Origin: Natronosalvus amylolyticus
GTDB taxonomy: Archaea; Halobacteriota; Halobacteria; Halobacteriales; Natrialbaceae
Assembly (NCBI RefSeq): GCF_024298845.1
Contig: NZ_CP101156.1
Location: 1,364,001-1,428,000 of the forward strand
Reading direction: 5' to 3'
DNA length: 64,000 bases
The notes below the pieces were generated by a model that had not been told where the DNA came from, did no database searches, and was given only the letters and a program-made list of their open reading frames with translations. Both the position numbers and the translations under genes were made by a program. This document shows, one piece after another, positions 1-25,029 of the stretch (position 1 is the stretch's first letter; each line of letters starts with the position of its first letter).

Positions 1-1384
1 TCTTGATTGCGTCCTGATCGTTCGGGTTCTGGATTTGCATCGAGATTTGCGTGCCACACTGTGACAGGACGTCCTGATCGATTTTCGACGGGCGCTGACT
101 GATAATTCCGAGGCCGAATCCGAATTTACGGCCTTCGGACGTGATCGTTCGCATGATCCCCAGTGATGGCGCGTCGCCGGATGCTGGAGCAAACCGGTGC
201 CCTTCCTCGAAGAGCGCAAAAATCGGTTGTTCGATTTCCGAGTCGCGGCCTCGTACGTCATCGAGGCGTTGTCGGTACAATCGACGCAACAACACCGTCG
301 TGATGAGTTGCTGATTCCACTTATCCAGCGTGTCCATCTGGAGGACTGTGCACTGGCCCGGATCGACGATCTCGGTCAGTGGAACGTTTTCTTCGGGATC
401 GAAGAGGTCGTTCCGTTCTATTGACTGTCGAAGTCGCCACTCCAAAGCACCGACACTCGGGTCATCGTCACCGTATCTCTGTTCCATCTCATTGATGAGT
501 TCATTGACTCCCCACGTTCGACTGTCTCGACGTTGCATCGCCCGCCAGGCGGTCGAAAGTCGCTCTTGCATCCGGTTGCTCGGGTTATCCAGGATCGCCA
601 TGACGTCGCCGATTTCCAGTTCTGAGATTCGAACGCGGAGTCGCTCAGGGTCGTAGTAGACGACGTCCGGTTCGTACCCGTCGTTGCCCTGAAAGCCCTC
701 CGCACCCTGCATTTCCGCGAGCGTGTCGTATTCGCCGTGCGGGTCGAACACGAGCAGAGATGCGCGTGCGCTGGGTCGCATCATCTCTTCGATGAGAATT
801 GATGCCGTGTACGATTTCCCGCTCCCTGTCGAAGCGAGGATTGCCAGGTGCGTCGAGGCGAACTCCTCGATCGGGATGTGAAGATTTGTCGCTTCCGGCG
901 GCCGATTCAAGAGCCAGCCGACGTGTGCGACCCCTTCTAATTCCGTGACGTCCGTTTCGTCGGTTTCACAGCCGAGGTTCGGCAGCACGGTTTCGAGTGT
1001 TTGATCTGGCGCGATCGACAGCGGCGTTCCCGGGCTGGGGAGTTGTCTCGGGTTAGCGAACGTCGTCATATCGGTATCGTAGTACCCGATAACCGTCGCT
1101 GTCAACCGGTACAGTTCCGCATCAGTAGTTGGGACACCGAGCGTTGCTGCGACCGTCTCCGGGCCGACCTCCGGATCCGCGAGGAACCCGTCCGGAAGCC
1201 CGCGAATCAGTTCACGGTTCGTCACGCGAGCAAACACCGCCCGATTCTCATCATCAACCGGTACGGTGTACGTGATGAACTCCCCCGTCTTGATCGATCG
1301 GTCTGCCGGGGCGACGAACACAAACTCGTTCGGATCATCACCCGGCCCAGCGACCGTCCCAATTACGTTTGCACGCCCCGACAT
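1..1384 (-). CDS. herA: HerA-type DNA translocase/helicase (partial, C-terminus beyond left edge)
   Basis: About 461 codons are visible and the gene continues past the left edge. HerA is a hexameric FtsK/HerA-family DNA pump that works with the NurA nuclease in end resection. The first ~60 residues (MSGRANVIGTV...) look like the HAS-barrel that docks NurA. A Walker A motif ASTGSGKSYTAS lies near residue 183. A Walker B-like motif LFEEGHRFAP with the paired acidic residues lies near residue 390, followed by IISQRPSKID, which resembles the HerA sensor/arginine region. The ATG shares one base with the stop of the preceding gene (TAATG), so it is the last visible member of a five-gene coupled operon. 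HerA is a safe assignment from motifs and from the NurA partner. Whether this copy does general repair or defence is inference. Confidence 0.9.
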   Translation of the reverse strand, partial: MSGRANVIGTVAGPGDDPNEFVFVAPADRSIKTGEFITYTVPVDDENRAVFARVTNRELIRGLPDGFLADPEVGPETVAATLGVPTTDAELYRLTATVIGYYDTDMTTFANPRQLPSPGTPLSIAPDQTLETVLPNLGCETDETDVTELEGVAHVGWLLNRPPEATNLHIPIEEFASTHLAILASTGSGKSYTASILIEEMMRPSARASLLVFDPHGEYDTLAEMQGAEGFQGNDGYEPDVVYYDPERLRVRISELEIGDVMAILDNPSNRMQERLSTAWRAMQRRDSRTWGVNELINEMEQRYGDDDPSVGALEWRLRQSIERNDLFDPEENVPLTEIVDPGQCTVLQMDTLDKWNQQLITTVLLRRLYRQRLDDVRGRDSEIEQPIFALFEEGHRFAPASGDAPSLGIMRTITSEGRKFGFGLGIISQRPSKIDQDVLSQCGTQISMQIQNPNDQDAIK

Positions 1385-2058
1385 TACACCACCCCGCGGC
1401 GTTCCCGCGCTTGCCACTGAACGTTCTGTTCGACGACATCCAGCACGCGTTGATTCTGGTCATCGTCCGCCAACATACCGCGTAACCGCTCGATTAGTGT
1501 GACGATGACTTCAGCGCCGAGATCACCCGCAACGTCGACGAGGCGATCCATGTACGCTAACTGAATCTGGTCGTCGACAGTGTGGAACGCAACTGTGACC
1601 TCGTCTGGGCAGTGGAACACCGTGTCCTCCACTTCTAACGTCCAGCGCGGCATCCGATGAGTCGGTTCCGTGATCGTTCTGTCATCGGTGATGGCCGCGG
1701 TTCCAAGTAACGCTACGCCGGCGAGCGTCGTTCGCTCTTCGATATACCCAGGTGTGAACTGGGCTTGATCGTCTTGCGCTAACCGCGGGCCGGTGCGCCC
1801 CTGGTCAGGATCGACAAGTTGCGTGTCGTAAATCACGCCCATCACCGCGTACTCGGTTCCATTCACGGTTTTTTTGATGAACACGGGTTGCCCGAACTCG
1901 CGCTCGTGGAGTTCCGGTGGCCGAGTGCAGTCCCGGTCTTTGAACACTTCGACCACGTAGTCGAGATGGCTGTTCGAGGAAACAATACTCCCAATCCGGA
2001 CACACGAGTCCAGATCCGGCGTGTCTACGTCTGATTCTGTCATAGGTTCGGTTGTCAT
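1384..2058 (-). CDS. Small HAS-barrel-like protein between NurA and HerA
   Basis: A 224-residue acidic protein of no firmly recognised family. I chose the ATG that overlaps the NurA stop (ATGA); an upstream in-frame start would lie inside nurA. The N-terminal half (DSCVRIGSIVSSNS..., then GQPVFIKK and YAVMGVIYDTQLV) has the look of a beta-barrel like the HAS domain at the start of HerA, which would make it a free-standing barrel. The C-terminal ~80 residues are helical and acidic. Its place between nurA and herA, with overlapping codons on both sides, suggests a stoichiometric subunit or adaptor of the NurA-HerA machine. The barrel assignment is my reading of the pattern, not a database result. 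Confidence 0.7.
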   Translation of the reverse strand: MTTEPMTESDVDTPDLDSCVRIGSIVSSNSHLDYVVEVFKDRDCTRPPELHEREFGQPVFIKKTVNGTEYAVMGVIYDTQLVDPDQGRTGPRLAQDDQAQFTPGYIEERTTLAGVALLGTAAITDDRTITEPTHRMPRWTLEVEDTVFHCPDEVTVAFHTVDDQIQLAYMDRLVDVAGDLGAEVIVTLIERLRGMLADDDQNQRVLDVVEQNVQWQARERRGVV

Positions 2059-3320
2059 CGTCGTCGGAGTTCTTTGCTCAGGGCTTTCGCGTTCCATTCT
2101 ACGGGCACATCGTTCGATTCGCCCCACCGCTGGACGATCCGGTAGAATTGCTGTCGGTCGCGGTGATTCAGCACCGCATCACTGTCGGCTTGCTGGAGAA
2201 TTTCCGGGTACCCGCGACCGATCCCGGCTTCTGCACGGACAATTTCGACAGTATACTCGTACATCGAATCATACCCGTCAGGGCCGTCGCTGCGACACAG
2301 CCACCCAGGGAACTCGATCCGGTCGAGCCCGGCTCCGGGCGGCACGTTCAGGTACGAAAACAGGATATCATCCCGGAACTCGTACCGCTCGCCCTCGTAC
2401 GTCGTTTGCAACGCGTCGATACTCCCATCGCGTTTCGAAATGAACGGAATCGTTGTGTCCCCCCACGGACTCATTAACTCAGTCAGGACGTGCGCGTCCG
2501 GGATGACGCGGTCAGTCCCGAACTCCTCCCGTAACAGGAGCCGCGTCTTCTTCACGAGTTCAGTTGCACTCGAGCCGGCGACGTACCCGACCAGCGGGAT
2601 TTCGTGGTGTTGACTGGCGGCGATCACTCGGCTTAACGTTGAGATGTATCGCTCGCGCGTCTCCGGTTTCAACGGATTCGCAAATGACGCGATTAGCGGC
2701 CCGTCGTAGAACACGATCGGTGTCTGCTCAATGTCACCGGCGACACGAGCGTCCGCGAGTTCCACGAGTTGCTCGATGAGGAGCGCTCCTTCGTGCTCGA
2801 ATCGGTGATGGCCGACGAGTTGTGAGTCGACGAACCGGTAGTCACCATCGTCTGATTCCTGCGTAATCTCATCAGGCGTCAACAACCGCCCGTGTACATC
2901 GCGCTCTAGACGACCATCGGCGTGATGATAGTTGACGGCCCACGCCGCCTGCACGTACGAGAGTGGGACATTGAACTGCGTGGTCGGCGGGAGTTGCGAC
3001 CCGTCAACGGCCATGACCGGCACGTCGCGGAGAATGGTGCGCGCCCACTCGTTCACCTCCTCGTGGTTTTCCCACCCGTCACTCTCAGGATGAGGTTCGA
3101 TGATGCTGTCTACGTCATCGAACTCGTCGGTCGGGTACGCTCCTGGGTACGATGCATCCTGCAACGCTTCACGGATCTCCTCACTCGTCCACTCCTCAGG
3201 AAGCCGCTGGAACGCGTCCTGATACCGCTCAACGACCCCTGAATCGTCTTCCAGGTACGCCTCGATCGTCCCAACATTAGCTTCTAACTCGGCAGCAACC
3301 CCGTGCTTGTCAATCGGCAT
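2055..3320 (-). CDS. nurA: NurA-family 5'-3' nuclease
   Basis: A 421-residue NurA nuclease. The metal-binding signature is visible: MAVDGSQ with Asp near residue 106, FYDGPL with Asp near residue 206, and a later acidic segment VIPDAHVLTEL. In archaea NurA degrades DNA ends while driven by the HerA translocase, after processing by Mre11-Rad50. The ATG shares a base with the Rad50 stop (TAATG) and its own stop overlaps the next start (ATGA). The first ~95 residues are an acidic extension that may be lineage-specific. Gene order Mre11-Rad50-NurA-HerA is the classical archaeal resection operon, which supports the call strongly. Confidence 0.9.
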   Translation of the reverse strand: MPIDKHGVAAELEANVGTIEAYLEDDSGVVERYQDAFQRLPEEWTSEEIREALQDASYPGAYPTDEFDDVDSIIEPHPESDGWENHEEVNEWARTILRDVPVMAVDGSQLPPTTQFNVPLSYVQAAWAVNYHHADGRLERDVHGRLLTPDEITQESDDGDYRFVDSQLVGHHRFEHEGALLIEQLVELADARVAGDIEQTPIVFYDGPLIASFANPLKPETRERYISTLSRVIAASQHHEIPLVGYVAGSSATELVKKTRLLLREEFGTDRVIPDAHVLTELMSPWGDTTIPFISKRDGSIDALQTTYEGERYEFRDDILFSYLNVPPGAGLDRIEFPGWLCRSDGPDGYDSMYEYTVEIVRAEAGIGRGYPEILQQADSDAVLNHRDRQQFYRIVQRWGESNDVPVEWNAKALSKELRRR

Positions 3321-6031
3321 TAACTCACGGTCACCTCCGATGTCTGCCGGTCTTTCTCCACGGTGATCGTGTAATCCGTCATCGAGTCGAACGTCTCATC
3401 GTGACTGATGACGGTGAGTTGCTCGAAACTATCCAACTGCTTCAACTGCATCACGAGATTCCGCTTTTTCTCCCGGTCGAGATTCGCCGTCGGCTCATCC
3501 AGGAACGCCACGCCGACCGACGCTAACTGTTCCAGAATGGCGAGGCGCACCGCGAGTGCAGCCGCCATCTTCTCACCGCCGCTTAGCGTCGAGAACGATT
3601 TTCGCACGTCCGCATCGTGCACAACGATCTCGTAATCACTCGTCCACTCAAGCGTCTCCGCGGACGCACCGCGAATCGTCCGGAACAACTCGTTCGCCCG
3701 CGTCCCAATCCGGTCTGTGATGATCTCCCGCATCTTCGGCCCGGCTTTCCGAACGTTCTCACGCACCCACTCCGCGAACTGCTGATCTGCCTTCAACTCC
3801 TTCAACTGCTGCAGCTTCGCCTGACGCTCCTCCAACTTCGCCTCTAACCGCTCGATCTTCTCGCGCGCATCGCGGAGATTTCCTTGCTTCTCTTCGAGAG
3901 AACCTTTCGATCGGTGAATCTCGCCTTTGAGATCGTCGATAGCCGACTCCAGTGCCTCCAGTTGGTCCTCGTCGAACGACGCTTCCGTCTCATCAAGCTC
4001 GGCCGTTGTTTCTTCCAGCTGATCTTCGAGGTCGGTAAGATCGGCCTGCAACTCGTTGACCACCTCTTGACGATTCTCAACTTGTGATGCCTGTTGCTCG
4101 TGCTTGATGTACGTCTGATGTGCTTCCTCCGTTTCCTCAAGCGTTGCTCTGACCTCGATTAACTTCTCGTCTAACTCTTCGTACTCTTCCAACTCGTCTT
4201 CGATCTCATCAAGTTCCGCGGTAGCAGAATTGAGATCCGCACGCTTCGTTTCCAACTTTTCCGGCGCGTCGCCATGTTCTTTAACGCGGAACTCAGCGGT
4301 CTGATACGCTTCGTACGCTTCCTCCAAGTCGGCCTTCTCTGCTTCGAGTTCCGGGAGCTCTGCCAATGCGCCTTCGAGATCAGTGAGCTCTTTCGCTGTG
4401 TCTGTCTTCTCATCCCGCAAGTCGGCAAGATCGGCTTCCAAAGACTCGATCTTGTCACGATGGGTCTGGAGAGAATCGGCACGCTGCTTGACCTCCCGTG
4501 CATTTTCCCGCCTCTCACGCAGGTCAATCAACTCCTCACCAAGCTTCTCGCGTTCCGTCTTGATCTCGTCAATCCGGGCTTCGCGCTGTTCAATCGTGTC
4601 CGACCGGTGTTCTTCACGCAACGGACGATCACACGTTGGACACGGCGCATCCACACCCGCATCACGCAACCGTTCCAACTGCTCTTCAAGCCGTTCCCGC
4701 TCGCCTTTCAGTTGTTTCCGATCTGCCTTCAGGTCACTAATCTCCTCATCGAACTCGTCCGGATGTATGGTCGCTTCCCACTCCACTTCGATTTCTTCGA
4801 CCGTCGTTTTCAGCGACTCAATATTCTCTTGTATCTCGTCGATCTCGCTACCGAGGGTCTGAATTTGCTCTTGCAGTTCCTCAACCTCACCCTCGCGTTG
4901 TTGCAGCGAGCTGATCTTATCCTCAAGTTCCTCAAATCGTTCTTTCTCATCCTCCCGCGCTTCGAGCGTTCCCTGTGCCGACTCTAACGTTTCAACGTCA
5001 TTCTCAAACTGCTCAACCCCGAACTGGATCGCCGAAATCTCTTGTTCTTGCTCCGTTTTCCGCTCGACGAGTTGATCCCGTTTTTCCTCTTGTTCCTCTA
5101 ACGTGTCCAAACGCTCACTCGCTTGCTCGTACTGCAGATACCCGTCACGATTCGCTTCGCATTTCTCCTGGGCACCCTCGGCAGCAGCAAGCTCCTCCTC
5201 GGCCGTTTCTAGTTGCTCCTCTGTCGCCTCAATTTCCTTCTCCAACGAGTCGACCTTCCCTTCGAGATCCTCAATCTCGTCTTTGACAGCTTCTAACTCC
5301 TCGTACTCCGCTTCTTTCTCAGACAACTCGCTCTGTTTCTGCTCGATACGCGTCTTGATCTTCTCCACTGCTTCAGCGAGCGTTTCCGCTTCCACTCGCT
5401 CGTCTGGCAGGCTCTGTACCTCACCAGTCAACGTAGCGATTTCATTTCGAAGATCTTGCTGTTGCTGCTCGATCGCGTCCGGGACGTTTTTGAGATGGTT
5501 CCATGACTCCTCGTACACATCAAGGTTTAGCAACGCGTCGAACGTCGTTTTCCGATTCCCTGCAGTTTGTGCGAAGTCGGAAAGGAATCGTGTCTGCGGC
5601 ACCCCGATACACGACTCCCAGAGACTCTGCAACTCGCCCCCATCCTCAACGCCTATCCGGGCGCACAACCACGTCATCAACCCCGATTTCGAATCAATAT
5701 CCTGGTCTACCCACTCGTCGCTCGCAGCATCGTACCGATGCACGCCGTAGTGCGCTCGCCCGACCGACCTAGTGACTCGGAATCGGTCCGTCCCACTCTC
5801 AGTTGCTATGTCGAACGTGACCTCAACGGTTCCAGAACTCACACCTTCGCGCACGAAATCCTTGTTGTTGAACGGCAACGAATCGAACAACGCGAACCCG
5901 ATCGCTTCCTGGATCGTCGATTTCCCCGCACCGTTTTTACCGAGAATCGCCGTCACACCGCCTTCAATCGGCACGACCGTTCGATCCTCATACGACTTGA
6001 TGTCCTCCAACGCGACTTCCGTGATTCTCAT
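3320..6031 (-). CDS. rad50: Rad50 ATPase (SMC-like), accessory copy
   Basis: A 903-residue Rad50. The N-terminal Walker A motif GKNGAGKST is at residues 31-39. Two long Glu/Lys-rich coiled coils flank a zinc hook CPTCDRPL near residue 463. The ABC signature LSGGEK is at about 816-821, and Walker B VAFLDEPTANLD ends near 852. Rad50 bridges DNA ends and controls Mre11 by ATP binding. The start overlaps the Mre11 stop (ATGA). It lies on an integrase-bounded island with nurA/herA, so I suspect it is additional to a housekeeping rad50 elsewhere; this cannot be checked from the window. All key motifs are intact. Confidence 0.95.
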   Translation of the reverse strand: MRITEVALEDIKSYEDRTVVPIEGGVTAILGKNGAGKSTIQEAIGFALFDSLPFNNKDFVREGVSSGTVEVTFDIATESGTDRFRVTRSVGRAHYGVHRYDAASDEWVDQDIDSKSGLMTWLCARIGVEDGGELQSLWESCIGVPQTRFLSDFAQTAGNRKTTFDALLNLDVYEESWNHLKNVPDAIEQQQQDLRNEIATLTGEVQSLPDERVEAETLAEAVEKIKTRIEQKQSELSEKEAEYEELEAVKDEIEDLEGKVDSLEKEIEATEEQLETAEEELAAAEGAQEKCEANRDGYLQYEQASERLDTLEEQEEKRDQLVERKTEQEQEISAIQFGVEQFENDVETLESAQGTLEAREDEKERFEELEDKISSLQQREGEVEELQEQIQTLGSEIDEIQENIESLKTTVEEIEVEWEATIHPDEFDEEISDLKADRKQLKGERERLEEQLERLRDAGVDAPCPTCDRPLREEHRSDTIEQREARIDEIKTEREKLGEELIDLRERRENAREVKQRADSLQTHRDKIESLEADLADLRDEKTDTAKELTDLEGALAELPELEAEKADLEEAYEAYQTAEFRVKEHGDAPEKLETKRADLNSATAELDEIEDELEEYEELDEKLIEVRATLEETEEAHQTYIKHEQQASQVENRQEVVNELQADLTDLEDQLEETTAELDETEASFDEDQLEALESAIDDLKGEIHRSKGSLEEKQGNLRDAREKIERLEAKLEERQAKLQQLKELKADQQFAEWVRENVRKAGPKMREIITDRIGTRANELFRTIRGASAETLEWTSDYEIVVHDADVRKSFSTLSGGEKMAAALAVRLAILEQLASVGVAFLDEPTANLDREKKRNLVMQLKQLDSFEQLTVISHDETFDSMTDYTITVEKDRQTSEVTVS

Positions 6032-7530
6032 TCGTTCACCACCTCCGGAACTTCATCACCCTCATCCAACGATGCATCACCTTCCGCAGACGCATCGTCA
6101 GTACTGTCGCCGAACGGATCCTCATCGATATCGAGTACGACGTTCTCAGCGAAGTCCGGGAACAACTCACGTCGCGCTGAACTCACCGACTCACGGATGT
6201 CCTCAACTGCTTCCTCAGCTTGCGCCATCTGATGCGCGTTCCCCAGCACGCCAGCCACATCCGAGGCTTGCTCAGCGTAAACCGACTCTTGCGTAATCGT
6301 TTCGAACACACGGTCTTCCAGCGCCGCCGTGTTCAACCGCCCGTCTTTGAACACTTCCTCTTCATCAATCTCCGAGATGAGTTGCTGCACGTTCGCAGTT
6401 CGAATCCCCGTGTTCACCTGCACGTACAACGCGTCACACTGTTCCTCGGCGGCGGCCGCGAGGTCGTCAGTCCGGAAGTCCCCACGACTAAACTGTAACG
6501 TCCCCGTGAACCGCAGATCAATAATCGGCGATCGAGGCTCCCCGTGCGCCGTGTACGCCGACTTCTGACAGTACTTCTCAACCGCCACTCGTTCGCTTTG
6601 AACGTGTTCGCGGAACGCGGACTCTAACTCACCCGGCGAGTCGTACGCCGTCACATCGAACTCGATCCGGTAATACGGTCGGCGTTTCGTCTCATGATGC
6701 GTCACGTCGAAGTTAACCGCCTCACCACTTCCAAGCGCGTCAGGCTTCACCGTCAACGAGTAATACCCGTGCTCCCAGTCATCTCGCCCCTCCCGCGTGT
6801 TGTGCGCCTCCGGCGACCCCGGATTGAAGATCCAGTCACTCGCTTCGTACCGCTTATGAATATGCCCGAGCGCAAGGTAATCCACCACGTCCTTCACCTC
6901 CCGCAACTCAGCGTGGGTTACCGTTCCACCTAACGTCGGTACCTCATCCTCCATCCCGAAATGCGCCAACAACACCGTAAACGCCGGCTCACCGTACTCC
7001 TTGTTCGTCTTCCGGATCCCGTTCGCCACTTGTTGTAACGCCTGCCCTGTTCGAGCGCCACGCCACTGTAATCCGAACACGCGAACCGGGCCATCACTTT
7101 CTGTTGTCTCGATATCGTAGAACCCCGCGTACTCACCTGGCTCATCAGGATCATACCGTTCGAACTGTGCCGTCTCAGGATCCGTCGACAAGTCCGCCTT
7201 CAAGAACACGACGTGCCCGCGTTGATGCAAGTAATTCAACCACGTCACCTCCCGCGGCGTCAAGTTCTCGTCGTGATTCCCGCGTGAGACCAGTACCGGG
7301 ACGTCATCCGGAACTTCGGCGAGTACCTGCTCGGTTTGATGAAGGATTTTCGGGCGGAGATCCCGAGAGTGGAACAGGTCCCCGGGTAACAGGATCGCGT
7401 CTGTTCCGCCATCGTCGATCATCTCTTCGAACGCGGTGCGTGTGGATGACACCATATCGTCCTCACGTTGTGTTAATCCGTACTGGCGATGCCCGTGATG
7501 CGTGTCCGCGATGTGTCCTAACGTCAACAT
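6028..7530 (-). CDS. mre11: Mre11 nuclease (calcineurin-like phosphoesterase)
   Basis: A 500-residue Mre11/SbcD-type exonuclease and first gene of the leftward operon. Phosphoesterase motifs appear in order: HIADTHHGH (residues 6-14), LLPGDLFH (~50), SRGNHDEN (~85), LLAHFG, and LGHIHKRY with the metal-binding His pair (~225). The C-terminal ~170 residues form an acidic, Ser/Asp/Glu-rich tail with the expected Rad50-binding and capping regions before it. It makes a complex with the coupled Rad50 gene (ATGA overlap). It is transcribed away from the giant GHKL-ATPase gene across a short intergenic stretch. Confidence 0.93.
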   Translation of the reverse strand: MLTLGHIADTHHGHRQYGLTQREDDMVSSTRTAFEEMIDDGGTDAILLPGDLFHSRDLRPKILHQTEQVLAEVPDDVPVLVSRGNHDENLTPREVTWLNYLHQRGHVVFLKADLSTDPETAQFERYDPDEPGEYAGFYDIETTESDGPVRVFGLQWRGARTGQALQQVANGIRKTNKEYGEPAFTVLLAHFGMEDEVPTLGGTVTHAELREVKDVVDYLALGHIHKRYEASDWIFNPGSPEAHNTREGRDDWEHGYYSLTVKPDALGSGEAVNFDVTHHETKRRPYYRIEFDVTAYDSPGELESAFREHVQSERVAVEKYCQKSAYTAHGEPRSPIIDLRFTGTLQFSRGDFRTDDLAAAAEEQCDALYVQVNTGIRTANVQQLISEIDEEEVFKDGRLNTAALEDRVFETITQESVYAEQASDVAGVLGNAHQMAQAEEAVEDIRESVSSARRELFPDFAENVVLDIDEDPFGDSTDDASAEGDASLDEGDEVPEVVNE

Positions 7531-7783
7531 TGTCGGTAAATCATGGTAAATCCGTGTTTCGCTGAGAGCGGCACCAAACCACCTACCTGAAACTCTATAC
7601 CTACATGTAACTGCAGGACTATTAAACGTCAGTCAACCAGGGTGAAAGTGAACATCAGAGTTTCTAATAGGATCGATAAGGCCGTATTCGAACGCCGTCG
7701 TCCCGCGAAACTGAATGGAGCCTCGTACCGTGTCTATTGACAGGTCAACAGGAATAAGTGGGTATGGACAGACCGTAAACGGT
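7531..7783. promoter_or_regulatory. Divergent promoter region between mre11 and the GHKL-ATPase gene
   Basis: AT-richer stretch holding TATA-like boxes in both directions (CTATACC near 7593, CTATTAAAC near 7619, GAATAAG near 7752). The last lies about 30 bases before the ATG at 7784, a spacing expected for leaderless haloarchaeal mRNA. A shared control region for the two divergent units would fit a joint function; that is inference. Confidence 0.4.
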
Positions 7784-10700
7784 ATGTCGTCCACTCATGC
7801 GTCGATAGAGGACATCCAAAAGACGCATCTCGGCACTTATCGGAGTAACCCGGATCGGATCGAATCTGATGCGGGGACCGAGCGTCAAGACCGAGCGGAT
7901 TACGATGGTCGCTTTATTTTCGAACTACTCCAGAACGCCGTCGACGAGATGGGGAATACGCCTGACCCGGACGTTCGGTTTGAACTCTCCGAAAACGCGC
8001 TCCTCGTGGCGAACAACGGTGCCGCGTTTACCATCGACGATCTCTACGCACTCACCTTGACCACGCGGACGACGAAAGCAGGCGATACTTCGATCGGGCA
8101 CAAAGGCCGGGGCTTCACCTCGGTTTTAGGGATCACCGACCGACCCGCCGTCTTCTCGCCATCGGTTGCCGCACGGTTTGACAGAGAACAAACAGCGGAG
8201 ATTCTCAGTGCAGAGCCTGATATCCGGGAGGCGTTTCCGGACGGGCTCGCTGCATCCGATGTCCCTGTGCTGGGACTACCGAATGAGGCCACTCCATCCT
8301 CAGCGGTGCAAAACCTCCTCGACGAGGGGTATACGACTGTCTTCGAGTTCCCCCTCCGCGATCCGGAAAACCTGTGCGAGAGGATCGAACGGAAACTACG
8401 TGCGCTTGGCGAAAACACGGTCGCGCTCTTGCCGGAGTTGAATCGCATTCAAATTGACTGTTCAGGGTGGGAGCGAACGTGGCGTGTTGACCGCGAAACT
8501 ATCAGCGATTATCCAGACGCGTCACTCGTACACTTGACGCGAGAGACGACCACTCCCGGAAGAACAGAGCAAGATACGCAGTCGTTCGTTGTTTTCGAAA
8601 CCGATGAAATCGATCGAACCGCTATCATTGAGCAATCGAACTTGAGCAAAGTCGAAGTCGACACGATGGGGAAACTCTCAGTCGGTGTAGGCTTCATCGC
8701 GGAGCCTACTTGTAAGAACCCTTCAACGAATCCCGCGGATTGGCGATTGGCTCCTGTTTACGGCGAAACAGATGACCAACCACCGCACATGCACGTCTTC
8801 CTCCCGACGAAGGAACGGAGTCCGATCCCCGCGCTCATCACTGGGACGTTTCAATCAGATACCTCACGTCGTAACCTTACACTCGACCACAACGACGAGC
8901 GAGGGTACGATGGCCAGTTCAACGCCGCCCTGTTCGCCGAACTCGGCGGACTCCTCGCGGAAACAGTCGTTCCTTTCATCGATGTGTCGGCGACGACACC
9001 AGCAGAGTTCCTCGCAACACTGGATCCCTCCCTCGGCGGCGCGCGTGAGTGGTCGTTCACACCCGGGTCCGTTGAACACTGTCTGTTCGAGACGTTCACG
9101 GAACGAATCTCTACCGTCCCGTTTGTCCCTCCACACCGTGGTGAGGCGCCCCGAACAATTACAGAACTCGGCCTTCCTCATACGGCCGCGGAGACCGACG
9201 GGCTGGGGACAGCGTTCGCCGAACTCCTTAACCACGAACACGTTACAGATGGTGCCGAGTCCAAATACCTCCCGGCAGCCGATCTCTTAACGTATCACAC
9301 GACCAATACACTCGAAGCACTCGGTGCAACGCGGTTGCCACCTGAAGCAATTCCACGAAGCCTCGATGAAGCCAGTGCGAACCCGCCGCTCCGCGAGTAC
9401 AGCACCGACCAACCGACGGAGCAAGCAGAGTCAAATGAGTCCGGTGATGCGGAAGGAGACACCGAGAACGCTGCACGCCTCTGGATTGACCCGATCCTCG
9501 TCCACCTCGTCGAAGTCCGCAAGACCCTGGAGTCTGACGATGAGCGCGACGCGTTCGACGCCGCCTGCCGATCCACACAACTGTTCCCAACCGGAACCAG
9601 TACCGACGCAAACGAGACACGAGTAGCGGTCCGAACACGAACCTGCGATCAGTCGTTATTCCTGCCGCCCGAGGAAGACGTTGCACGCGACAGCTTGCCG
9701 ACGCTCGCGTTCCTCGCACGCGAACTTTACCACGGGACCGATCCCAACGCCGCACCGGAACTCCGGAAAGCGGCTCTGCCGACTGGTTTCCGTTCCGAAC
9801 TGGAGAGTATTTGGCGAATCGAATCCTTCTCATTCGAGCGCGTGTTCGACGCGGCGATCCGTCCGTGGATCCCCGGACCGAACTCACGGGACGTCGATAC
9901 TGCGCCTCTCGAAACGACTGAGACGCTGGCAACGATCCGGAAGTTGGCAGCAGTCAGATCACCCGAGAACGACCGTGATCCGACGAAACCACTCCTGTAT
10001 CGCTCTTCACGGCGCTCATTTTTCGACCTCTCGAAACTCCCGATCCCTGCCGTCCCGCTGAACGGAGGTAAAATCGAGTGGCAACCCGCACACCGCGTCT
10101 ACGTCCCACAGGACTGGCAAGAGCCACTGGACAGACCTAACAACGCTCAGATCGAACCGCTACTCACCGACGTCAACGAACAGAGCGACACAGACAGGTT
10201 CGACCCGTGGTTCCTTCCCCCGCTGAAGTGGTTCGACCTCGAAGCGTCGGACACCGCGGAAATCGAGGAGTGGGTAGCGTTCTTCCGATGGCTCGGTGTC
10301 GCCGAACACGTCCGTCCGCTCCCGCTTTTCGCGCCGGACGCATCGACACGGCATCGGTACCGGAAAACGAAAGGCTTCCAGCAACCGCCGCGATCAGCGA
10401 TCGCCCCAGCAGACGACCTCGCCGCGTCAGACGAGACAACAACCCCCGTCGACCCACGCTACAGCGGCCTCTCCGACGACGAATGGGCAACGTATCGAGA
10501 ACACCTCCTGGACAACGTTGACCCGGAACTGGACGTAAAGGACCACGGCTATCTCTACCAAATAAACCCGCTCGAATACGCCGAGGAAATTCTCTCGGCC
10601 GCAGCGGCTGACGAGTCTGTTGGGACACGCCTCCTGAATCACCTCGCAACGTGGTGGGACACGGAACTCAGACGACACCAGCATGGCTTGGCCGCAGAGT

Positions 10701-12835
10701 TCACCAATAACCGGTGGCGCGGCTCGAACCGGTCGTACTTCTTCCGCTCAAAGGAACGACGGGCCGCAGGAGTGAACCTCTGGGTGTGGCAACTACAACA
10801 ACACGACTGGGTCCCGACGAGTCAGGGGACGGTAGCACCACCGCGTGCGTGGCTCCTTCCGTCGAGCGACCGCGAGCGATTCAGTCTGCAACTCGACGGC
10901 AACAGGTCCCTACTCCCCTTCGTGAAAGGGTTCCATCCGACCGACACTGGGACAGACACAACCGACGCGTTCACCTCAGCACTGGGCATCGGAACGCAGC
11001 TCGAACAAGAACAGTTCTCCCCTGACGACGTCGAGTGTGTACTCTTACGCGTCCACGATCATCTGCAGAACGCCTCAGTCGAACCGGGCCGCTTCGCAGG
11101 CGAGGTAGAACTCATCTACACACGAGTTGCAGAACTTCTTCCAGGACTCCAAGCTGAACGCATTGCTGATCCGGAGTGGCGCCCTGAACAAACAGGACTC
11201 GACACAGCTTCGATCCTTTGCCGAGACGGCGACTCGTACGAGTTCTACCCAGCATCAGAGTCGTACTTCGTCAGGTCACACACCGACCGCCAGCGATACA
11301 GGAACCTGGGCCTGCCACACATTGTCCTCTTCAAGCCTGAAGCCGCGCGCTTCGGAACGCTCCTGAGCGCTACAGACACGGCGGCTGTGGTTACCAAGAT
11401 GCCTTGCCCAGGCGACGACATCGGGATCCCTGCGAACGTGAACGGGACCACGATCGACGAGGGGTGGATTGAAACGGTTCTCGTTGCGCTTCTCTTGCGC
11501 CTCCGGTCAGACCGGCCTTCCGCAGCCGCAGTCGACCAAGACACAAGCAACACACGACGCTTCTACCAGCAACTCGAGATCGTCGACGGACTCGAATTGG
11601 AACTGACAACGACAGAACCGGCAGCACAGTTCGAGACTGACACGCGTCCACAACCGTACCACATTACCCGGGGAGATGGAGGGACAAAATCTGCGGTCCT
11701 GATCGACGGATCACTACCCGACAGGGAATTCGTCGATGCGGTCGCCCGGGCTTACACGGATTATCTCGACATCCCGCAGTACTACGAAGGAGTGTACAAC
11801 CTCATCGAGCACGCGTTCGGAGAGTCGTCGCCAGAAGCAACCCTACTCGACCGGCTTCGCATACTCGGGAACGGTATGCACGACGGCCAGTTCGATGTTG
11901 CTCGAAGTCAACTCTTCGAAGACGAAGGAGGAACGGAAATCGTGTACGAGGAGTCCGAGAAGACAGACCGTGATACGTCGAACCAGTCGGACACGTCCAT
12001 CAGCGTGGAGCGCGACTTGAATACGACTGAGCAAGCCGACTCGGGGTCTGCGAGTAGATCGAACCGCGTACCCGATGTAGAGAAACTCACCCGAATCGGC
12101 GAGAGCAGAATCTACGAACCCGAGTCGCCGCGGACGACATCTGTGAATACCACCGACCAGACGAAGACCGTACAACGACAGAGGAATAGTTCTGGGTCGG
12201 GCGCAACACCTGCCTCGCAAGAGTATCGAACCAAAATCGATGACTTCGGAATGGCGCTCACAATTGAGTCCGAGGGCGATCGCCTTCGACAGAACGACGA
12301 GCCAAACCCCGAGACAAAAGTCTGGGACGTGAGTACACCGGAAACGTACGGAGAAGCGAAGGGGGACTCTGAAATCAAGGAACCAGTCAACGCGAAAGGA
12401 GACCCTGATCTCGTCAAACAGGCGATCGACAACTTCCTCACGGAAGCTGGGCTCTCCGAGGACGAAAACCCGTTCGCCACCGACTGGCCAGGCTTTGACG
12501 TACTGACCATCGCAACCGGAGAGGATGACGAACCCAGAATCGACCGGTGTATCGAGCTTAAAACGTCGGGGCTCAAGACGCGCAAACCCTCACTCTCATG
12601 GAACGAGTGGAAAGCCGCCGGAAGCACACTCGCAGACCGTTACTACCTCTACGTGGCCCGCAACATCCGCGTAGGGAAAAGCGGCGATGCAACGCTGCTG
12701 GAGATCCCGCGACCATTCGAGACACTGACTAAACACCGACGCGAACGCCGCGAGCGTGAAGTCCAACTCGACCTCCGAAGCTTCGACCTTGACGACGACC
12801 TGATCATCGAGCGTCCCGTCGAATGGGACGAGTAG
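7784..12835 (+). CDS. Giant GHKL-type ATPase (sacsin/NO VEIN-like) with DUF3883 C-terminal domain
   Basis: A 1683-residue protein. The N-terminus has a GHKL ATP-binding fold: FIFELLQNAVDE (N box, residues 44-55), a degenerate DxG motif VANNGAAF (~76-82), and SIGHKGRGF (G box, ~103-111). The middle is long, acidic and not recognised. A low-complexity linker (~1380-1480) leads to a DUF3883-like C-terminus with RCIELKTSG (E and K of a PD-(D/E)XK-like core, ~1588-1596), followed by WNEWKAAG and YYLYVARNI. Proteins of this plan often occur in defence islands and are thought to be ATP-gated nucleases or sensors. I prefer this ATG, with a TATA-like box upstream; an in-frame ATG at 7715 would add 23 residues. 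The exact activity is unknown. Confidence 0.85.
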   Translation: MSSTHASIEDIQKTHLGTYRSNPDRIESDAGTERQDRADYDGRFIFELLQNAVDEMGNTPDPDVRFELSENALLVANNGAAFTIDDLYALTLTTRTTKAGDTSIGHKGRGFTSVLGITDRPAVFSPSVAARFDREQTAEILSAEPDIREAFPDGLAASDVPVLGLPNEATPSSAVQNLLDEGYTTVFEFPLRDPENLCERIERKLRALGENTVALLPELNRIQIDCSGWERTWRVDRETISDYPDASLVHLTRETTTPGRTEQDTQSFVVFETDEIDRTAIIEQSNLSKVEVDTMGKLSVGVGFIAEPTCKNPSTNPADWRLAPVYGETDDQPPHMHVFLPTKERSPIPALITGTFQSDTSRRNLTLDHNDERGYDGQFNAALFAELGGLLAETVVPFIDVSATTPAEFLATLDPSLGGAREWSFTPGSVEHCLFETFTERISTVPFVPPHRGEAPRTITELGLPHTAAETDGLGTAFAELLNHEHVTDGAESKYLPAADLLTYHTTNTLEALGATRLPPEAIPRSLDEASANPPLREYSTDQPTEQAESNESGDAEGDTENAARLWIDPILVHLVEVRKTLESDDERDAFDAACRSTQLFPTGTSTDANETRVAVRTRTCDQSLFLPPEEDVARDSLPTLAFLARELYHGTDPNAAPELRKAALPTGFRSELESIWRIESFSFERVFDAAIRPWIPGPNSRDVDTAPLETTETLATIRKLAAVRSPENDRDPTKPLLYRSSRRSFFDLSKLPIPAVPLNGGKIEWQPAHRVYVPQDWQEPLDRPNNAQIEPLLTDVNEQSDTDRFDPWFLPPLKWFDLEASDTAEIEEWVAFFRWLGVAEHVRPLPLFAPDASTRHRYRKTKGFQQPPRSAIAPADDLAASDETTTPVDPRYSGLSDDEWATYREHLLDNVDPELDVKDHGYLYQINPLEYAEEILSAAAADESVGTRLLNHLATWWDTELRRHQHGLAAEFTNNRWRGSNRSYFFRSKERRAAGVNLWVWQLQQHDWVPTSQGTVAPPRAWLLPSSDRERFSLQLDGNRSLLPFVKGFHPTDTGTDTTDAFTSALGIGTQLEQEQFSPDDVECVLLRVHDHLQNASVEPGRFAGEVELIYTRVAELLPGLQAERIADPEWRPEQTGLDTASILCRDGDSYEFYPASESYFVRSHTDRQRYRNLGLPHIVLFKPEAARFGTLLSATDTAAVVTKMPCPGDDIGIPANVNGTTIDEGWIETVLVALLLRLRSDRPSAAAVDQDTSNTRRFYQQLEIVDGLELELTTTEPAAQFETDTRPQPYHITRGDGGTKSAVLIDGSLPDREFVDAVARAYTDYLDIPQYYEGVYNLIEHAFGESSPEATLLDRLRILGNGMHDGQFDVARSQLFEDEGGTEIVYEESEKTDRDTSNQSDTSISVERDLNTTEQADSGSASRSNRVPDVEKLTRIGESRIYEPESPRTTSVNTTDQTKTVQRQRNSSGSGATPASQEYRTKIDDFGMALTIESEGDRLRQNDEPNPETKVWDVSTPETYGEAKGDSEIKEPVNAKGDPDLVKQAIDNFLTEAGLSEDENPFATDWPGFDVLTIATGEDDEPRIDRCIELKTSGLKTRKPSLSWNEWKAAGSTLADRYYLYVARNIRVGKSGDATLLEIPRPFETLTKHRRERREREVQLDLRSFDLDDDLIIERPVEWDE

Positions 12836-13017: not shown

Positions 13018-13494
13018 TCAGGGTTGGTTCGTTCCGGCGTTAATGTTTGTCATCGCCCCCTCGTCAAGTGCCTGTCGCCATAAGAGGTGAATTGCTCGGG
13101 CAACGATGTCAACTGAGGGTTCCCTGAGACACGATGCCTCTACCTGGGTATCCGCGCTTGACGCGTCTGGTGGCGGGTGGAAGTGTCGGTCGTCGGGCGG
13201 TGCTGAAAAGTCGTGAGGGTGGATATCCCACCGGAGGTTGCGTCCGGACGTATCCGAGTAGTGAATATTGTAGTCGCCCACCGTCGTCCATCGAACCGTG
13301 AATATGGTTGTATCTGCTTCTCCGACGCCATACGGTATCGTGAGCCGGAGTTCTCGGGGGTTGAGTCGGTCATCGATCTCGCCTGAGGCCATCGGTTCGA
13401 TGGCGCTGAACGCATCTCGGAACGCATCGAGTTTCGTCACGTCGATAGTGCCTCGAAGTGCGTGAGAGTCGCCGTCTCCATTGTCGAATTGCAT
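13018..13494 (-). CDS. TumE-type toxin-like protein
   Basis: A 158-residue protein resembling TumE-family toxins (DUF6516): a beta-rich core (TIFTVRWTTVGDYNIHYSD, then LRWDIHPHDF) and a conserved HPH...HFHPPP stretch, followed by a short helical tail (RAIHLLWRQALDE). Its ATG overlaps the stop of the upstream winged-helix gene (TGATG), the usual layout of a translationally coupled antitoxin-toxin pair. The assignment rests on recognised motifs and on gene pairing. The biochemical activity of such proteins in haloarchaea is not established from this sequence. Confidence 0.7.
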   Translation of the reverse strand: MQFDNGDGDSHALRGTIDVTKLDAFRDAFSAIEPMASGEIDDRLNPRELRLTIPYGVGEADTTIFTVRWTTVGDYNIHYSDTSGRNLRWDIHPHDFSAPPDDRHFHPPPDASSADTQVEASCLREPSVDIVARAIHLLWRQALDEGAMTNINAGTNQP

Positions 13495-14024
13495 CAGACT
13501 TTTTCTGCGGCACCAGTGGGGTTTTCGACCGCGCTGAGCGCGAGCGCCACCTCAGCGAATGCGAGGTTCCGCCGCGTCGTTCGCCACTCCAGGAGCGTCT
13601 CTGTGTCGATATTCGATTGGGATCGGACGGCGTCATCGGGCGAGTTAGCGCCGAACCGGTCGCCGAACTCTCGAAGCTCCTCGCGCATCTCCAGAACGCG
13701 TGTCGAGAGCGTCTCGGTGTCCGTCTCGTCGAGGATACGTCGAGCCTGTTCGAGGGCGAGCGAGTCCGTGGACCGCTGATACAGCGTCCCCGTCGAGTCT
13801 GGTGACGCGGTCTCTGCCACGTAGCCGTGTTCGACAAGCGAGCGAAGATGCTTGCGGGCAGTCTGCTCCGACGTAAGGGCGTTTTCGGCAACGGTCGCCG
13901 CGCTCATGGGCTCGTACGCCGTGCGCATCACTGACCGCACACGGTCGAACGGGCTGGTATCACGTTTCCAGTCCTCTTTGGCGCGCTCGTTCACATCCTC
14001 GAACGCTGGGGCAGATTCTGGCAT
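13494..14024 (-). CDS. Winged-helix DNA-binding protein, likely antitoxin/regulator of the TumE-like gene
   Basis: A 176-residue protein with a winged helix near residues 25-85 (SVMRTAYEPMSAATVAENA, TSEQTARKHLRSLVEHGYV) of ArsR/TrmB type, similar to haloarchaeal DUF7342-type proteins as I recall them. The rest is helical (ILDETDTETLSTRVLEMREELREF). I chose the ATG at 14024 because a TATA-like ATATACT box sits about 27 bases upstream, which fits leaderless transcription. As first gene of the pair it likely represses the operon and neutralises its partner; this is inferred from arrangement only. Confidence 0.75.
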   Translation of the reverse strand: MPESAPAFEDVNERAKEDWKRDTSPFDRVRSVMRTAYEPMSAATVAENALTSEQTARKHLRSLVEHGYVAETASPDSTGTLYQRSTDSLALEQARRILDETDTETLSTRVLEMREELREFGDRFGANSPDDAVRSQSNIDTETLLEWRTTRRNLAFAEVALALSAVENPTGAAEKV

Positions 14025-14045
14025 CAAATCAACGTACGGAACATG

Positions 14046-14053: not shown

Positions 14054-14248
14054 ACTCTTCGGGATGCTATTCTTACCTGCCCGGGCTGTCGGCTGCATAT
14101 CAGTACGCCTAAGAGCCAATGAGCGGCTTTCCTTACTCTAGACCGGTTGATGGAATACTGCACCTCTCCTCTCGACCAGGATTGTGAGGGCGTTTTCGCT
14201 GTCCAATGCGATCTCTTGAAGAGACCGCTCCTTGAAATTGGGCAAGAA

Positions 14249-14257
14249 CAAATATAC
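14249..14257 (+). promoter_or_regulatory. TATA-like box for the NERD-helicase gene
   Basis: AAATATAC lies about 26-30 bases before the ATG at 14280. It selects that ATG over an upstream TTG at 14232, which would place the box inside the coding region. Confidence 0.5.
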
Positions 14258-14279
14258 ATCTCTACTGACCAGTATCCGC

Positions 14280-16415
14280 ATGGAATTTCTCCCGACGACT
14301 GCGGATACGGACGCCGCTGGAGCTGACGCAGAGTTGGAGGCGTGGGAACGACTCAAACAAGCCTTCGACGGTAGCGAAAACGGTGTCGCGTACCACCAGT
14401 ATCCGATCGTCGACAAAGGGGGAGATAAGTTCGATCACGAGCCAGATATCGTAATTTTGCATCAGGAACTCGGACTGCTCGTTATTGAAGTGAAAGGCTA
14501 TACGAACCGTCATATCGACCGTATCGAAGGCCATACGTGGCACCTGCGGAATATGCGTTACTCGCGGTCTACACCACACCAACAGGCTCGGAATCAAGCG
14601 CTGTTCTTGCGTCGATTCTTCACGAGTGAACCGGCACTGTCCGATCTTGATGGGTGTCGCGTTCCGGCGAATACGTTCGTCGCACTCCCGAATATCACGA
14701 GAGCAGAATGGGAAGACCGTGGGTTCAACGGCCCGGCTGCACCGCGAACGCTCCTAAGTGACGATTTGACGCCTGTTGCGTTACGCGACGCGCTCGAAAA
14801 CGTTCGGACGTTCGACCCTCTTACTGATGAGGAGTACGAAGCCGCACGCGACGTCCTCAGTTGCGGCCAATCGATCAGCGGTGGTCGAACTGACCCACCC
14901 GCGAACCCGACGTTGAAAGGCGAACTGTATGAACGTGTGACCAACGGGCTTCGCGGACTCGACCAGCAACAACAAGAAATCGGGATGCTCGTCCCACCAG
15001 GGCCACAGCAGATCCGCGGCATCGCCGGGTCAGGAAAGACCGTTCTGCTAGCGATGAAAGCCGCACGGACGCACCAAAGACACCCTGAAATGGATATTGC
15101 GATTACCTTCCAGACAAAGAGCCTGTACGAACAACTGACAACGCTCGTTGAACGGTTCTACCAGCGCTTCGCCAACGACCAACCCAACTGGGAGAAACTC
15201 TCCGTCCTTCACGCGTGGGGCGGTCAAGAATCCGGTAACGGGATCTACTATAATCTTGCAACAGCAGCTAACCGAAAGCCTCGAACGTGGCATGGGGCAT
15301 CCAACGCGTTCCCGGATCGAGAAGACGTGTTCGACGCATGCTGCGAAGAACTGCTCGACGAAGCGGACGTTCCACAGCTCTACGATGCAATCTTTATCGA
15401 TGAAGCACAGGATTTTGGATCGAATTTCTTCAATCTCTGTCTCGAAGCACTCGACGAGAACCAGCGGCTTGTCTGGGCATACGATGAAGCACAGAGTCTC
15501 TCTAACCTGACCGCACCGAGTCCAACCAATATTTTCGGCACTACTGATGACGGCGAGCCGGTTCTTGATTTGCGAGGCTCGTACGCCCGTGGTGTCCAGA
15601 AAAGCCATATTATGCGACAGGCCTACCGCTCACCTAGATCAGTGTTGATGGCCGGTCACGCCCTCGGTATGGGTCTCAAATCGACTGACGGACCGATCCA
15701 GACGATTACGAGAGGTGACGGCTGGGACGCTCTCGGGTACGACGTCGAGGGTGACTTCAGAGAGATCGGTCAAGAGGCAACGATTCGTAGACCAAGTGAG
15801 AACTCCCCACACCCGTTACATGATGTCCCAGAAGCCAAGCCATTCGTCCAGACAAAATCATTCCCGACAAAAATGGCAGAGCTGAACTGGGTTGCAAAGC
15901 AGATCAACCAGGATATCGAGACCGGATTGCAACCAGAACAGATACTGGTAATTGTGCCTGGCTCTCGACACCGAGATATCGGCCACGTTCTCCTTCGAAA
16001 CCAGCTCGAACAACACGGTCACGACGTGAACTGCGTCTGGCTTGACGATCCGAAGGTGTTCGCTACGGATGGCGCAGTCACCGTATCCGGAATCCATCGA
16101 GCAAAGGGCAACGAAGCAGCTTCTGTGTACCTCGTAGGACTTGAGAACATCCAAGACCCGGAATACCGAGACAGCGCCGTCCACCGTCGCAACGAGGCTT
16201 TCGTTGGCATCACCCGATCGCGCACCTGGTGTACAGTTACCGGCGTCGAAAGCGAAGGCGTCACTATACTGGAAGAAGCAAAACGCGTCTCTGCAGCCGT
16301 CTCACGCCCCAACCCCGAAATCACGTTCGAAATCCCCGACCCCAAGAAATTAGATCACGAACTAGAAGAGGACCCAAACCTTGAAACTCCAGAGCTATTT
16401 GATTTTACTGACTAA
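14280..16415 (+). CDS. NERD-domain nuclease fused to an SF1 (UvrD-like) helicase
   Basis: A 711-residue fusion. The NERD domain (residues ~10-120) shows the PD-(D/E)XK core: EPDIVIL with Asp near residue 56, and VIEVKGY with Glu70 and Lys72. The helicase part has Walker A GIAGSGKTVLL (~246-256), Walker B FIDEAQDFG (~373), a QAYRS motif (~447) and terminal motifs VSGIHRAKGNEA and AFVGITRSR (~635-655), as in UvrD/REP helicases. NERD-helicases are thought to process or degrade DNA and are frequent in mobile and defence regions. It stands alone in its transcription unit, divergent from the TA pair. All helicase motifs look intact. Confidence 0.88.
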   Translation: MEFLPTTADTDAAGADAELEAWERLKQAFDGSENGVAYHQYPIVDKGGDKFDHEPDIVILHQELGLLVIEVKGYTNRHIDRIEGHTWHLRNMRYSRSTPHQQARNQALFLRRFFTSEPALSDLDGCRVPANTFVALPNITRAEWEDRGFNGPAAPRTLLSDDLTPVALRDALENVRTFDPLTDEEYEAARDVLSCGQSISGGRTDPPANPTLKGELYERVTNGLRGLDQQQQEIGMLVPPGPQQIRGIAGSGKTVLLAMKAARTHQRHPEMDIAITFQTKSLYEQLTTLVERFYQRFANDQPNWEKLSVLHAWGGQESGNGIYYNLATAANRKPRTWHGASNAFPDREDVFDACCEELLDEADVPQLYDAIFIDEAQDFGSNFFNLCLEALDENQRLVWAYDEAQSLSNLTAPSPTNIFGTTDDGEPVLDLRGSYARGVQKSHIMRQAYRSPRSVLMAGHALGMGLKSTDGPIQTITRGDGWDALGYDVEGDFREIGQEATIRRPSENSPHPLHDVPEAKPFVQTKSFPTKMAELNWVAKQINQDIETGLQPEQILVIVPGSRHRDIGHVLLRNQLEQHGHDVNCVWLDDPKVFATDGAVTVSGIHRAKGNEAASVYLVGLENIQDPEYRDSAVHRRNEAFVGITRSRTWCTVTGVESEGVTILEEAKRVSAAVSRPNPEITFEIPDPKKLDHELEEDPNLETPELFDFTD

Positions 16416-18172: not shown

Positions 18173-18430
18173 TCTCTACACCCACGCGAGCGCCGCATTA
18201 TGCTGCGCAAGGTACTCCGGTTTCAGGCTCTCATCCGGAAGCGCGACTCGTTCACCATCTTGCTCGATAATCGTTCGCTGCAGCAACTCGCTTTGCGTCT
18301 CGAACGACGGGTTCACGTGCAGTCGGTAGTCCCGATCGATCGTGAACAGGTCACGGTCGAACGCAACGTGATGCGTCTTACTCAGCGGGAGCACGTTCGT
18401 CAAATCCGCCTGCCCTCCAGGTACTCACTC
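18173..18430 (-). pseudogene. Truncated duplicate of the HNH endonuclease 3' end
   Basis: This stretch is a diverged copy of the last ~85 codons of the HNH gene at 21020-22033. It keeps a 75-codon open frame (from an ATG at 18403) with LSKTHHVAFDRDLFTID and the shared C-terminus EYLAQHNAALAWV. Homology continues a few bases past the ATG on the 5' side, with a one-base length difference, then stops where the neighbouring gene ends at 18425. The winged-helix domains and the first half of the HNH motif are missing, so it is most likely a non-functional remnant. Together with the intact gene it frames a three-gene cassette. Confidence 0.75.
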
Positions 18431-24693: not shown

Positions 24694-24860
24694 GCTGACC
24701 ACCCCTGAGAGAGTCCTTTGAATCGGATTGCAGGGCAAATAGTCGTAATCGCTGTACTGCGTCGGGGTGACCCGACCATCTCAATCGCATTGCCTTTCGA
24801 TTTCATGCTTACGTGAGGTTAGCACGGGCTCGAAATCGGGAGACGGCGTCGGGAAAAGGA

Positions 24861-24935
24861 TGCTCCGTCAGGGATTCGAACCCTGGTCATTGCCGTGAGA
24901 GGGCAATATGATTGGCCGGACTACACCAACGGAGC
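24861..24935 (-). tRNA. tRNA-Glu (CUC)
   Basis: 75 nt fold as a cloverleaf on the minus strand: acceptor GCTCCGT pairs with ACGGAGC, the anticodon stem TTGCC/GGCAA encloses loop CTCTCAC with anticodon CUC, and the T arm reads CAGGG-TTCGAAT-CCCTG. The 3' end faces the integrase gene, so this is the probable chromosomal attachment site. CCA is not encoded. Confidence 0.95.
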
Positions 24936-25029
24936 AGTAGTGCCGTTCGTGCTACGTTCTACGGTTGCCGGGAAAACCGTTTAAGCGTTCCGTTTCGGGC
25001 ACGGGGTGTCCGTCTTTCGCACACTCGAG

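Follow-up and report, generated by a model that had tools for sequence, protein, structure and literature searches.

In a 64,000-nucleotide stretch of DNA from the haloarchaeon Natronosalvus amylolyticus (contig NZ_CP101156.1, positions 1,364,001 to 1,428,000, hereafter the window), we analyzed a set of five genes encoding Mre11, Rad50, NurA, HerA and a small protein related to the HAS barrel of HerA (Table 1). All the genes of the Mre11-Rad50-NurA-HAS-HerA set that an earlier note on this DNA had described as complete are present, with Pfam matches for the four enzymes (for HerA, to the DUF87/HerA central domain, 6.4e-35), and the full herA open reading frame, which is cut by the window edge, was obtained from the flanking DNA (L003). 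Start and stop codons overlap by 1 to 4 bases at most gene junctions from mre11 to herA, i.e., this is a tight operon. Scores in NCBIfam did not reach the equivalog cut-offs for Rad50 (234 vs 700 bits), Mre11 (59 vs 600 bits) or HerA (129 vs 970 bits, with HerA cut at the window edge), which marks the operon proteins, judged by sequence, as divergent relatives and not equivalogs of those lineage-specific models. A second mre11-rad50 pair, for which the earlier note had advised a check, is present on the chromosome at C1:3519 kb and is 26% identical in Rad50, while the window nurA is the single match in its own genome, where no second copy was found.

Table 1. Features of the locus, in window coordinates (position 1 is the first letter of the window).
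Feature	Position	Strand	Description
herA	1384..1	-	547 aa (558 if start at 1417); 259 bp more beyond the left window end, to C1:1363741
HAS gene (X)	1384-2058	-	about 224 aa, predicted stand-alone HAS-barrel protein; 247 aa if start at 2127
nurA	2055-3320	-	421 aa; Pfam NurA 1.2e-24
rad50	3320-6031	-	903 aa; zinc hook CPTC; Pfam AAA_23 2.6e-21
mre11	6028-7530	-	500 aa; Pfam Metallophos 1.6e-10
Operon leader, 122 bp	7531-7652	-	CACTTTCAC box before TATA-like TTTAATAG box; upstream end of shared DNA
GHKL (sacsin-type) ATPase	7715-12835	+	1706 aa; Tiamat (TmtA)-like, NOV_C/DUF3883-like end
DUF7342 winged-helix and weak TumE-toxin-like proteins	13018-14027		Overlapping pair
NERD-UvrD helicase	14232-16415		PADLOC Helicase, 362 bits
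Tyrosine integrase	23590-24738	-	Phage_integrase 9.6e-16
tRNA-Glu	24858-24936	-	Adjoins the integrase

Our survey of 391 haloarchaeal genomes from 86 genera identified this five-gene module in 40 genomes and 22 genera, and in none of 6 congeners of the window's host. A NurA scan of GTDB contigs identified 19 loci, 82-90% identical in NurA, with carriers in Halopiger, Halovenus, Salinadaptatus, Halosimplex, Haloplanus, Halorubrum, Natronomonas, Natrinema, Halobellus, Halocatena and others. Two contigs labelled as bacterial metagenome-assembled genomes (L022 and L024) hold the haloarchaeal operon at high identity, and are probably mis-binned. Every locus not cut by a contig end contains all five genes in one order, with NurA identity of 37-100% across the complete loci, and this order holds even where identity is as low as 36-40%. 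The Walker A (GSGKS), Walker B (EE) and arginine finger of HerA are invariant in 45 alignment rows; NurA has 52 invariant residues across 43 rows, including D106, D206 and E373; and the Walker A/B, signature and zinc hook of Rad50 are invariant in 44-45 rows. In Mre11, eight of nine phosphodiesterase motif residues are invariant in 41 rows, and the ninth, H54, a histidine following the GD motif, is an aspartate in 7 of these, a possible sign, from the alignment, of changed nuclease specificity in one branch. Since these catalytic residues are invariant and the ratio of nonsynonymous to synonymous substitution (dN/dS) is 0.02-0.16, i.e., there is strong purifying selection, the sequences indicate that the operon genes are in use. 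Previously, nurA and herA have been described as not apparent in halophiles (PMC12977600) and as absent from H. volcanii (PMC7776575); we found no description of the mobile haloarchaeal operon among open-licence papers, and HerA, NurA and Rad50 go unmentioned in a survey of archaeal immunity from 2026 (PMC12988326). Our genome survey indicates that the haloarchaea, the textbook archaea without HerA-NurA, in fact pass a complete five-gene version around.

Searches of Pfam, PADLOC and NCBIfam gave no match to the protein encoded between nurA and herA. An AlphaFold2 model made from 19 relatives, with a predicted local distance difference test score (pLDDT) of 82, gave as its best solved folds the N-terminal HAS barrels of HerA in many structures, with Z up to 12.7 over 116 residues, and because of this match we class the modelled product as a stand-alone HAS-barrel protein. 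In known complexes, the HAS barrel is the contact site of HerA with NurA (PMC9960219), and we infer that the stand-alone protein would dock between these two proteins. Every complete locus has its gene in this place, with nurA on one side and herA on the other. When the phylum was searched with a profile, HAS matches were found in 15 Halobacteriota genomes outside the haloarchaea, where at least 7 loci contain an uninterrupted mre11-rad50-nurA-HAS-herA order and 2 more contain this order with an inserted gene; the five-gene order is seen, for example, in L133, L134, L135, L137, L141, L142 and L145. Judged by this distribution, the HAS protein seems to be a fifth component of this archaeal operon that is old and has been overlooked, making its gene a candidate for a missing subunit of the wider archaeal complex.

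A tree of 66 Rad50 proteins (Shimodaira-Hasegawa-like approximate likelihood ratio support; midpoint root, with no outside root, each group being one side of a branch) separated the mobile haloarchaeal operons (n = 43, support 99), the operons of other Halobacteriota (n = 9, support 93) and the chromosomal haloarchaeal Rad50 (n = 14, support 100). The Rad50 proteins of the mobile operon form one clade, which adjoins the operons of other Halobacteriota and stands apart from the chromosomal haloarchaeal Rad50. These three separate groups rule out that the mobile operon is a copy of the chromosomal mre11-rad50 pair. Recent transfer of the operon between haloarchaeal genera is shown at the level of DNA identity, with 20.6 kb around the operon common to Halovenus salina and Halosimplex salinum and 99% identical. 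Homology between loci with different surroundings ends only a few bases from the herA stop codon and, at the upstream end, by pairwise DNA identity, about 122-140 bp before mre11 or at the mre11 start codon. Our alignment demonstrated that the operon leader of about 120 bp is kept in many loci and differs in those linked to prokaryotic Argonaute (pAgo) genes. L008 and L016 have exactly the module in common (7957 bp, 92.5%) and differ in their partners, with the module beside a Tiamat-like gene in L008 and beside BREX/Shango-like genes in L016. Four carriers have the module on plasmids. We rejected a virus-borne module, there being no match in IMG/VR, which was scanned by exact peptide patterns that reach close relatives only, or in phage records. 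The window also contains the integrase and tRNA that the earlier note took to bound an island; they probably represent its attachment end, but the second border was not located. Neither 83 kb of sequence nor the genome as a whole yielded a second att repeat when searched, so the borders of the island are not proven. A 129-bp remnant of the herA 3' end is present at L008:18175-18303, about 4.5 kb downstream of intact herA, and in this locus a block of AgaP-like cargo is flanked by the two herA ends; a HerA-like remnant also occurs in L023:16768-16995. The herA 3' remnant is possibly a recombination handle for the swapping of neighbours.

The earlier note had joined the operon to the divergent GHKL ATPase gene as one system, in which both would act jointly, with the GHKL protein as a sensor or switch. 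We consider this very improbable. The GHKL protein matches the PADLOC TmtA profile by which Tiamat is recognized (237 bits), with an N-terminal GHKL ATPase, and the NCBIfam P_loop_sacsin model (66.5 bits, cut-off 50). Its reported length of 1683 residues is correct if the methionine at codon 24 is used, the protein otherwise being 1706 aa, and the reported shared promoter region of 250 bases agrees with the 253-bp gap to mre11 from this second methionine, falling to 184 bp from the first. Of the DUF3883 end that had been reported, the GFD...IELK motif is intact, and is invariant in 11 homologues, while the domain match is weak (NOV_C/DUF3883, 20.2 bits, below the 22.1 cut-off); a low-confidence model of the C-terminus (pLDDT 58) gave no significant fold match, with weak ones only to PD-(D/E)XK folds (best E 0.03), and the invariant motif makes assignment as a nuclease plausible. 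A joint system would fit the common divergent promoter region, across which this gene faces the operon in the window and in L008, and the second, distinct TmtA-like gene that is divergent from the operon in L012. However, when we searched the genome sample with the N-terminal 695 residues, 9 of the 10 closest GHKL relatives, counting the window gene among the ten, were in genomes without the operon, and 3 of these 9 adjoin pAgo and an AgaP-like gene; the GHKL gene is therefore mostly unlinked to the operon in other genomes, which the earlier note had itself named as evidence against the pairing. Between the window and L008, synonymous divergence (dS) is 0.48 for the GHKL gene vs 1.3-1.8 for the operon genes, values that are near saturation and approximate but clearly contrasting, and DNA identity drops at the junction from mostly 0.84-0.90 to 0.60-0.85. 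A GHKL dS of about one third of the operon dS means that the two were joined separately. In addition, the module border falls inside the common promoter region, and at other loci this operon stands opposite defence genes of quite other kinds. On distribution and dS, we reject the operon and the GHKL gene as one system, and class the latter as a separate Tiamat-like gene, an incidental local neighbour outside the conserved module.

Several other genes surround these loci. In L155, L156 and L157, from three genomes that have no operon, four genes are side by side: a Tiamat-like GHKL gene, one encoding a protein of 558 aa, pAgo, and a gene of the AgaP-like type. The 558-aa protein is also encoded in L073, where pAgo adjoins the operon. 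Beside the window GHKL gene, the overlapping DUF7342 and TumE-like genes are possibly a toxin-antitoxin pair, and L065 has homologues of both genes, paired, downstream of its operon (flipped coordinates 18194-19284); the NERD-UvrD helicase gene also adjoins the GHKL gene, with no relative found near the operon at other loci. Left of the window, genes for a TFB-like factor, an HNH nuclease, a KAP P-loop NTPase (PifA/QatA-like) and an AAA protein stand in a row, convergent with herA (L003:11161-17916), and may be a further defence operon; L003:9435-10469 encodes a protein with a match to CARF-PIN models.

We scanned the neighbours of the module across loci selectively within about 10 kb, with PADLOC matches representing remote homology. 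At least 31 of about 46 loci contain a recognized defence-type gene in this range, including long pAgo with a DUF2797 protein and a winged helix-turn-helix regulator, a divergent PIWI protein, an AgaP-related protein with PLD and P-loop parts, OLD-like AAA-TOPRIM, GmrSD, dGTPase, TmtA-like GHKL, Eco57I-type methyltransferases, type IIG, McrB-like, and BrxC/D with a SngC-like helicase. Of the 40 carriers, 18 have an AgaP-like PLD gene no more than 15 kb away, vs 0.10 expected by position alone, and 6 have pAgo in this range, vs 0.05 expected. In six loci from several deep branches (L054, L057, L059, L070, L071 and L075), a PIWI or AgaP-like gene is co-directional with, and immediately upstream of, mre11. 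As a control, we took 10 proteins encoded beside this operon in Halobacteriota other than haloarchaea; they had no PADLOC match, and most of these are housekeeping proteins (topoVI-B, SecY, SHMT, enolase, UppS and others). Our results support the earlier interpretation in part, in that the operon is mobile, accessory to a chromosomal mre11-rad50 pair and mostly located beside defence genes.

Based on this context, our favoured reading, to which we give an even chance, is that the mobile module is an ancient archaeal double-strand-break operon that has spread horizontally as a repair-competent end degrader, mostly in defence islands. From the protein families, Mre11-Rad50 would find and open DNA ends, a HerA hexamer would pump duplex DNA into a NurA dimer that would cut both strands, and the HAS-barrel protein would serve as an extra docking ring or adaptor. 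For the majority of hosts, in which a native Mre11-Rad50 is retained, the context suggests a RecBCD-like helper that would degrade linear DNA, either viral genomes or ends cut by a neighbouring immune system (pAgo/AgaP, OLD-like, type IIG, McrBC-like, BREX-like or Tiamat-like); the module would also repair DNA ends in the ordinary way, and a small number of lineages would have come to rely on it as the only Mre11-Rad50. RecBCD of E. coli has an activity useful for both immunity and repair, and a complete repair machine that can replace the native one and resides in defence islands fits an end degrader of this kind. Antiviral action is predicted from context, i.e., the module may act against viruses; HerA-NurA of Thermococcus cuts both strands of double-stranded DNA, and an antiviral role has been proposed for it (PMC12977600). 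More tentatively, and with less confidence than an even chance would warrant, we propose a portable RecBCD-like machine that would be a DNA-degrading arm common to unrelated immune systems, pAgo/AgaP above all, that could at times replace the native Mre11-Rad50, and in which HAS would be an undescribed fifth component of the archaeal complex.

Plain DNA repair carried on a mobile element, the alternative that the earlier note had allowed for, stays open as a serious possibility short of an even chance; on this explanation the module gives better break repair or recombination to the host or the element, and islands merely collect accessory DNA. It gains from the catalytic motifs, all of which are those of repair enzymes, and from the housekeeping nature of the same operon in other Halobacteriota. 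Observations that favour it and also weigh against our favoured reading come from genus g46, where four genomes contain the operon only, four contain another Rad50 only and one (G208) contains both, and where the operon is syntenic in four genomes near housekeeping genes, e.g., an IF-2B family gene. No Rad50 other than that of the operon was found by these searches in G156, G235, G252, G072 and G002, and the last of these, outside genus g46, likewise has the operon only. Such near mutual exclusion suggests that the module can apparently do the Mre11-Rad50 work of the cell, replacing the repair proteins in some lineages, and this pattern in g46 and G002 speaks for repair replacement and not for a dedicated weapon. 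Further points against our favoured reading are that the module is on only four plasmids and was not found in the virus records searched, and that about 15 loci, with neighbours examined in part, have no recognized defence neighbour. In addition, the Poisson expectations for neighbours ignore the shared ancestry of the loci, and defence genes attract each other, so the neighbour figures reflect residence in defence islands and are no proof of cooperation. Against plain repair, a chromosomal haloarchaeal Rad50 is already present in most of the 20 carriers tested, haloarchaea without Mre11-Rad50 are not more sensitive to damage (Halobacterium and H. volcanii data cited in PMC12977600), and defence-type neighbours recur in deeply diverged branches, including the co-directional pAgo/PIWI and AgaP-like genes upstream of mre11. 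The module could also be a self-contained defence system that needs no neighbour, in which Mre11-Rad50 would recognize the ends of foreign DNA and HerA-HAS-NurA would destroy it, as the sharp module borders leave neighbours out, the module persists without a recognized partner in several loci, and antiviral formats are known both for HerA combined with a nuclease and for Rad50-like proteins (PMC12977600, PMC10586767). We regard this as improbable, given that vertical, housekeeping-like versions exist and that searches of Pfam, PADLOC and NCBIfam identified no toxic or sensing domain beyond the repair enzymes.

HerA-NurA is essential in Sulfolobus, and its role is hence hard to test there. The question of whether it works in repair or against viruses is still open (PMC12977600). 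In our survey, roughly a tenth of the haloarchaeal genomes contain HerA-NurA, in most cases as accessory genes of a host whose chromosomal Mre11-Rad50 is intact, and for that reason the operon should be removable in these culturable hosts, or movable between them, together with immune partners whose activity can be measured.

Comparison with known systems places the module near several of these. The APAP system of haloarchaea pairs pAgo with the PLD nuclease AgaP (PMC11442185), and it is genes of these two kinds, pAgo and AgaP-like, that most commonly neighbour the module, although the paper describing APAP does not mention HerA, NurA, Mre11 or Rad50. The motif spacing in the AgaP-like protein studied here is HxK(x)15GSxN, whereas AgaP of APAP has a split HxK(x)49GSxN; pAgo was not found in the genome of the window, so that pAgo beside AgaP, which defines APAP, is not seen there, and pAgo with an AgaP-like gene is present at several other module loci. 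Only the GHKL neighbour in the window, which is not part of the module, resembles Tiamat (TmtA, 237 bits). In systems of HerA with Sir2 (Nezha) or DUF4297, a HerA ring is likewise coupled to a nuclease via a HAS barrel, but here the partner is NurA with Mre11-Rad50. The window HerA scored 69-78 bits against the anti-phage HerA models (cut-offs 800-850), with the 472 residues inside the window scored, and we rejected membership of the Nezha type, which is recognized by a HerA equivalog with a Sir2 or DUF4297 partner. Lamassu likewise has a Rad50-type ATPase in a mobile defence-island operon, and LmuB is among the best PADLOC matches of the window Rad50. PADLOC identified no LmuA or LmuC match in the operon, and the Walker B glutamate of Rad50, E846, is present in 45 of 45 rows, where LmuB generally has a glutamine (PMC10586767); lacking both LmuA/LmuC and the Glu-to-Gln change in the C-terminal Walker B, the operon was rejected as Lamassu, from which it also differs in having a real Mre11, NurA and HerA. 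The closest likeness is to the archaeal Mre11-Rad50-NurA-HerA operon of hyperthermophiles and other Halobacteriota, with the same four enzymes in one operon and the same intact catalytic motifs, and in contrast to these operons, the haloarchaeal version is accessory, horizontally mobile and mostly located in defence islands.

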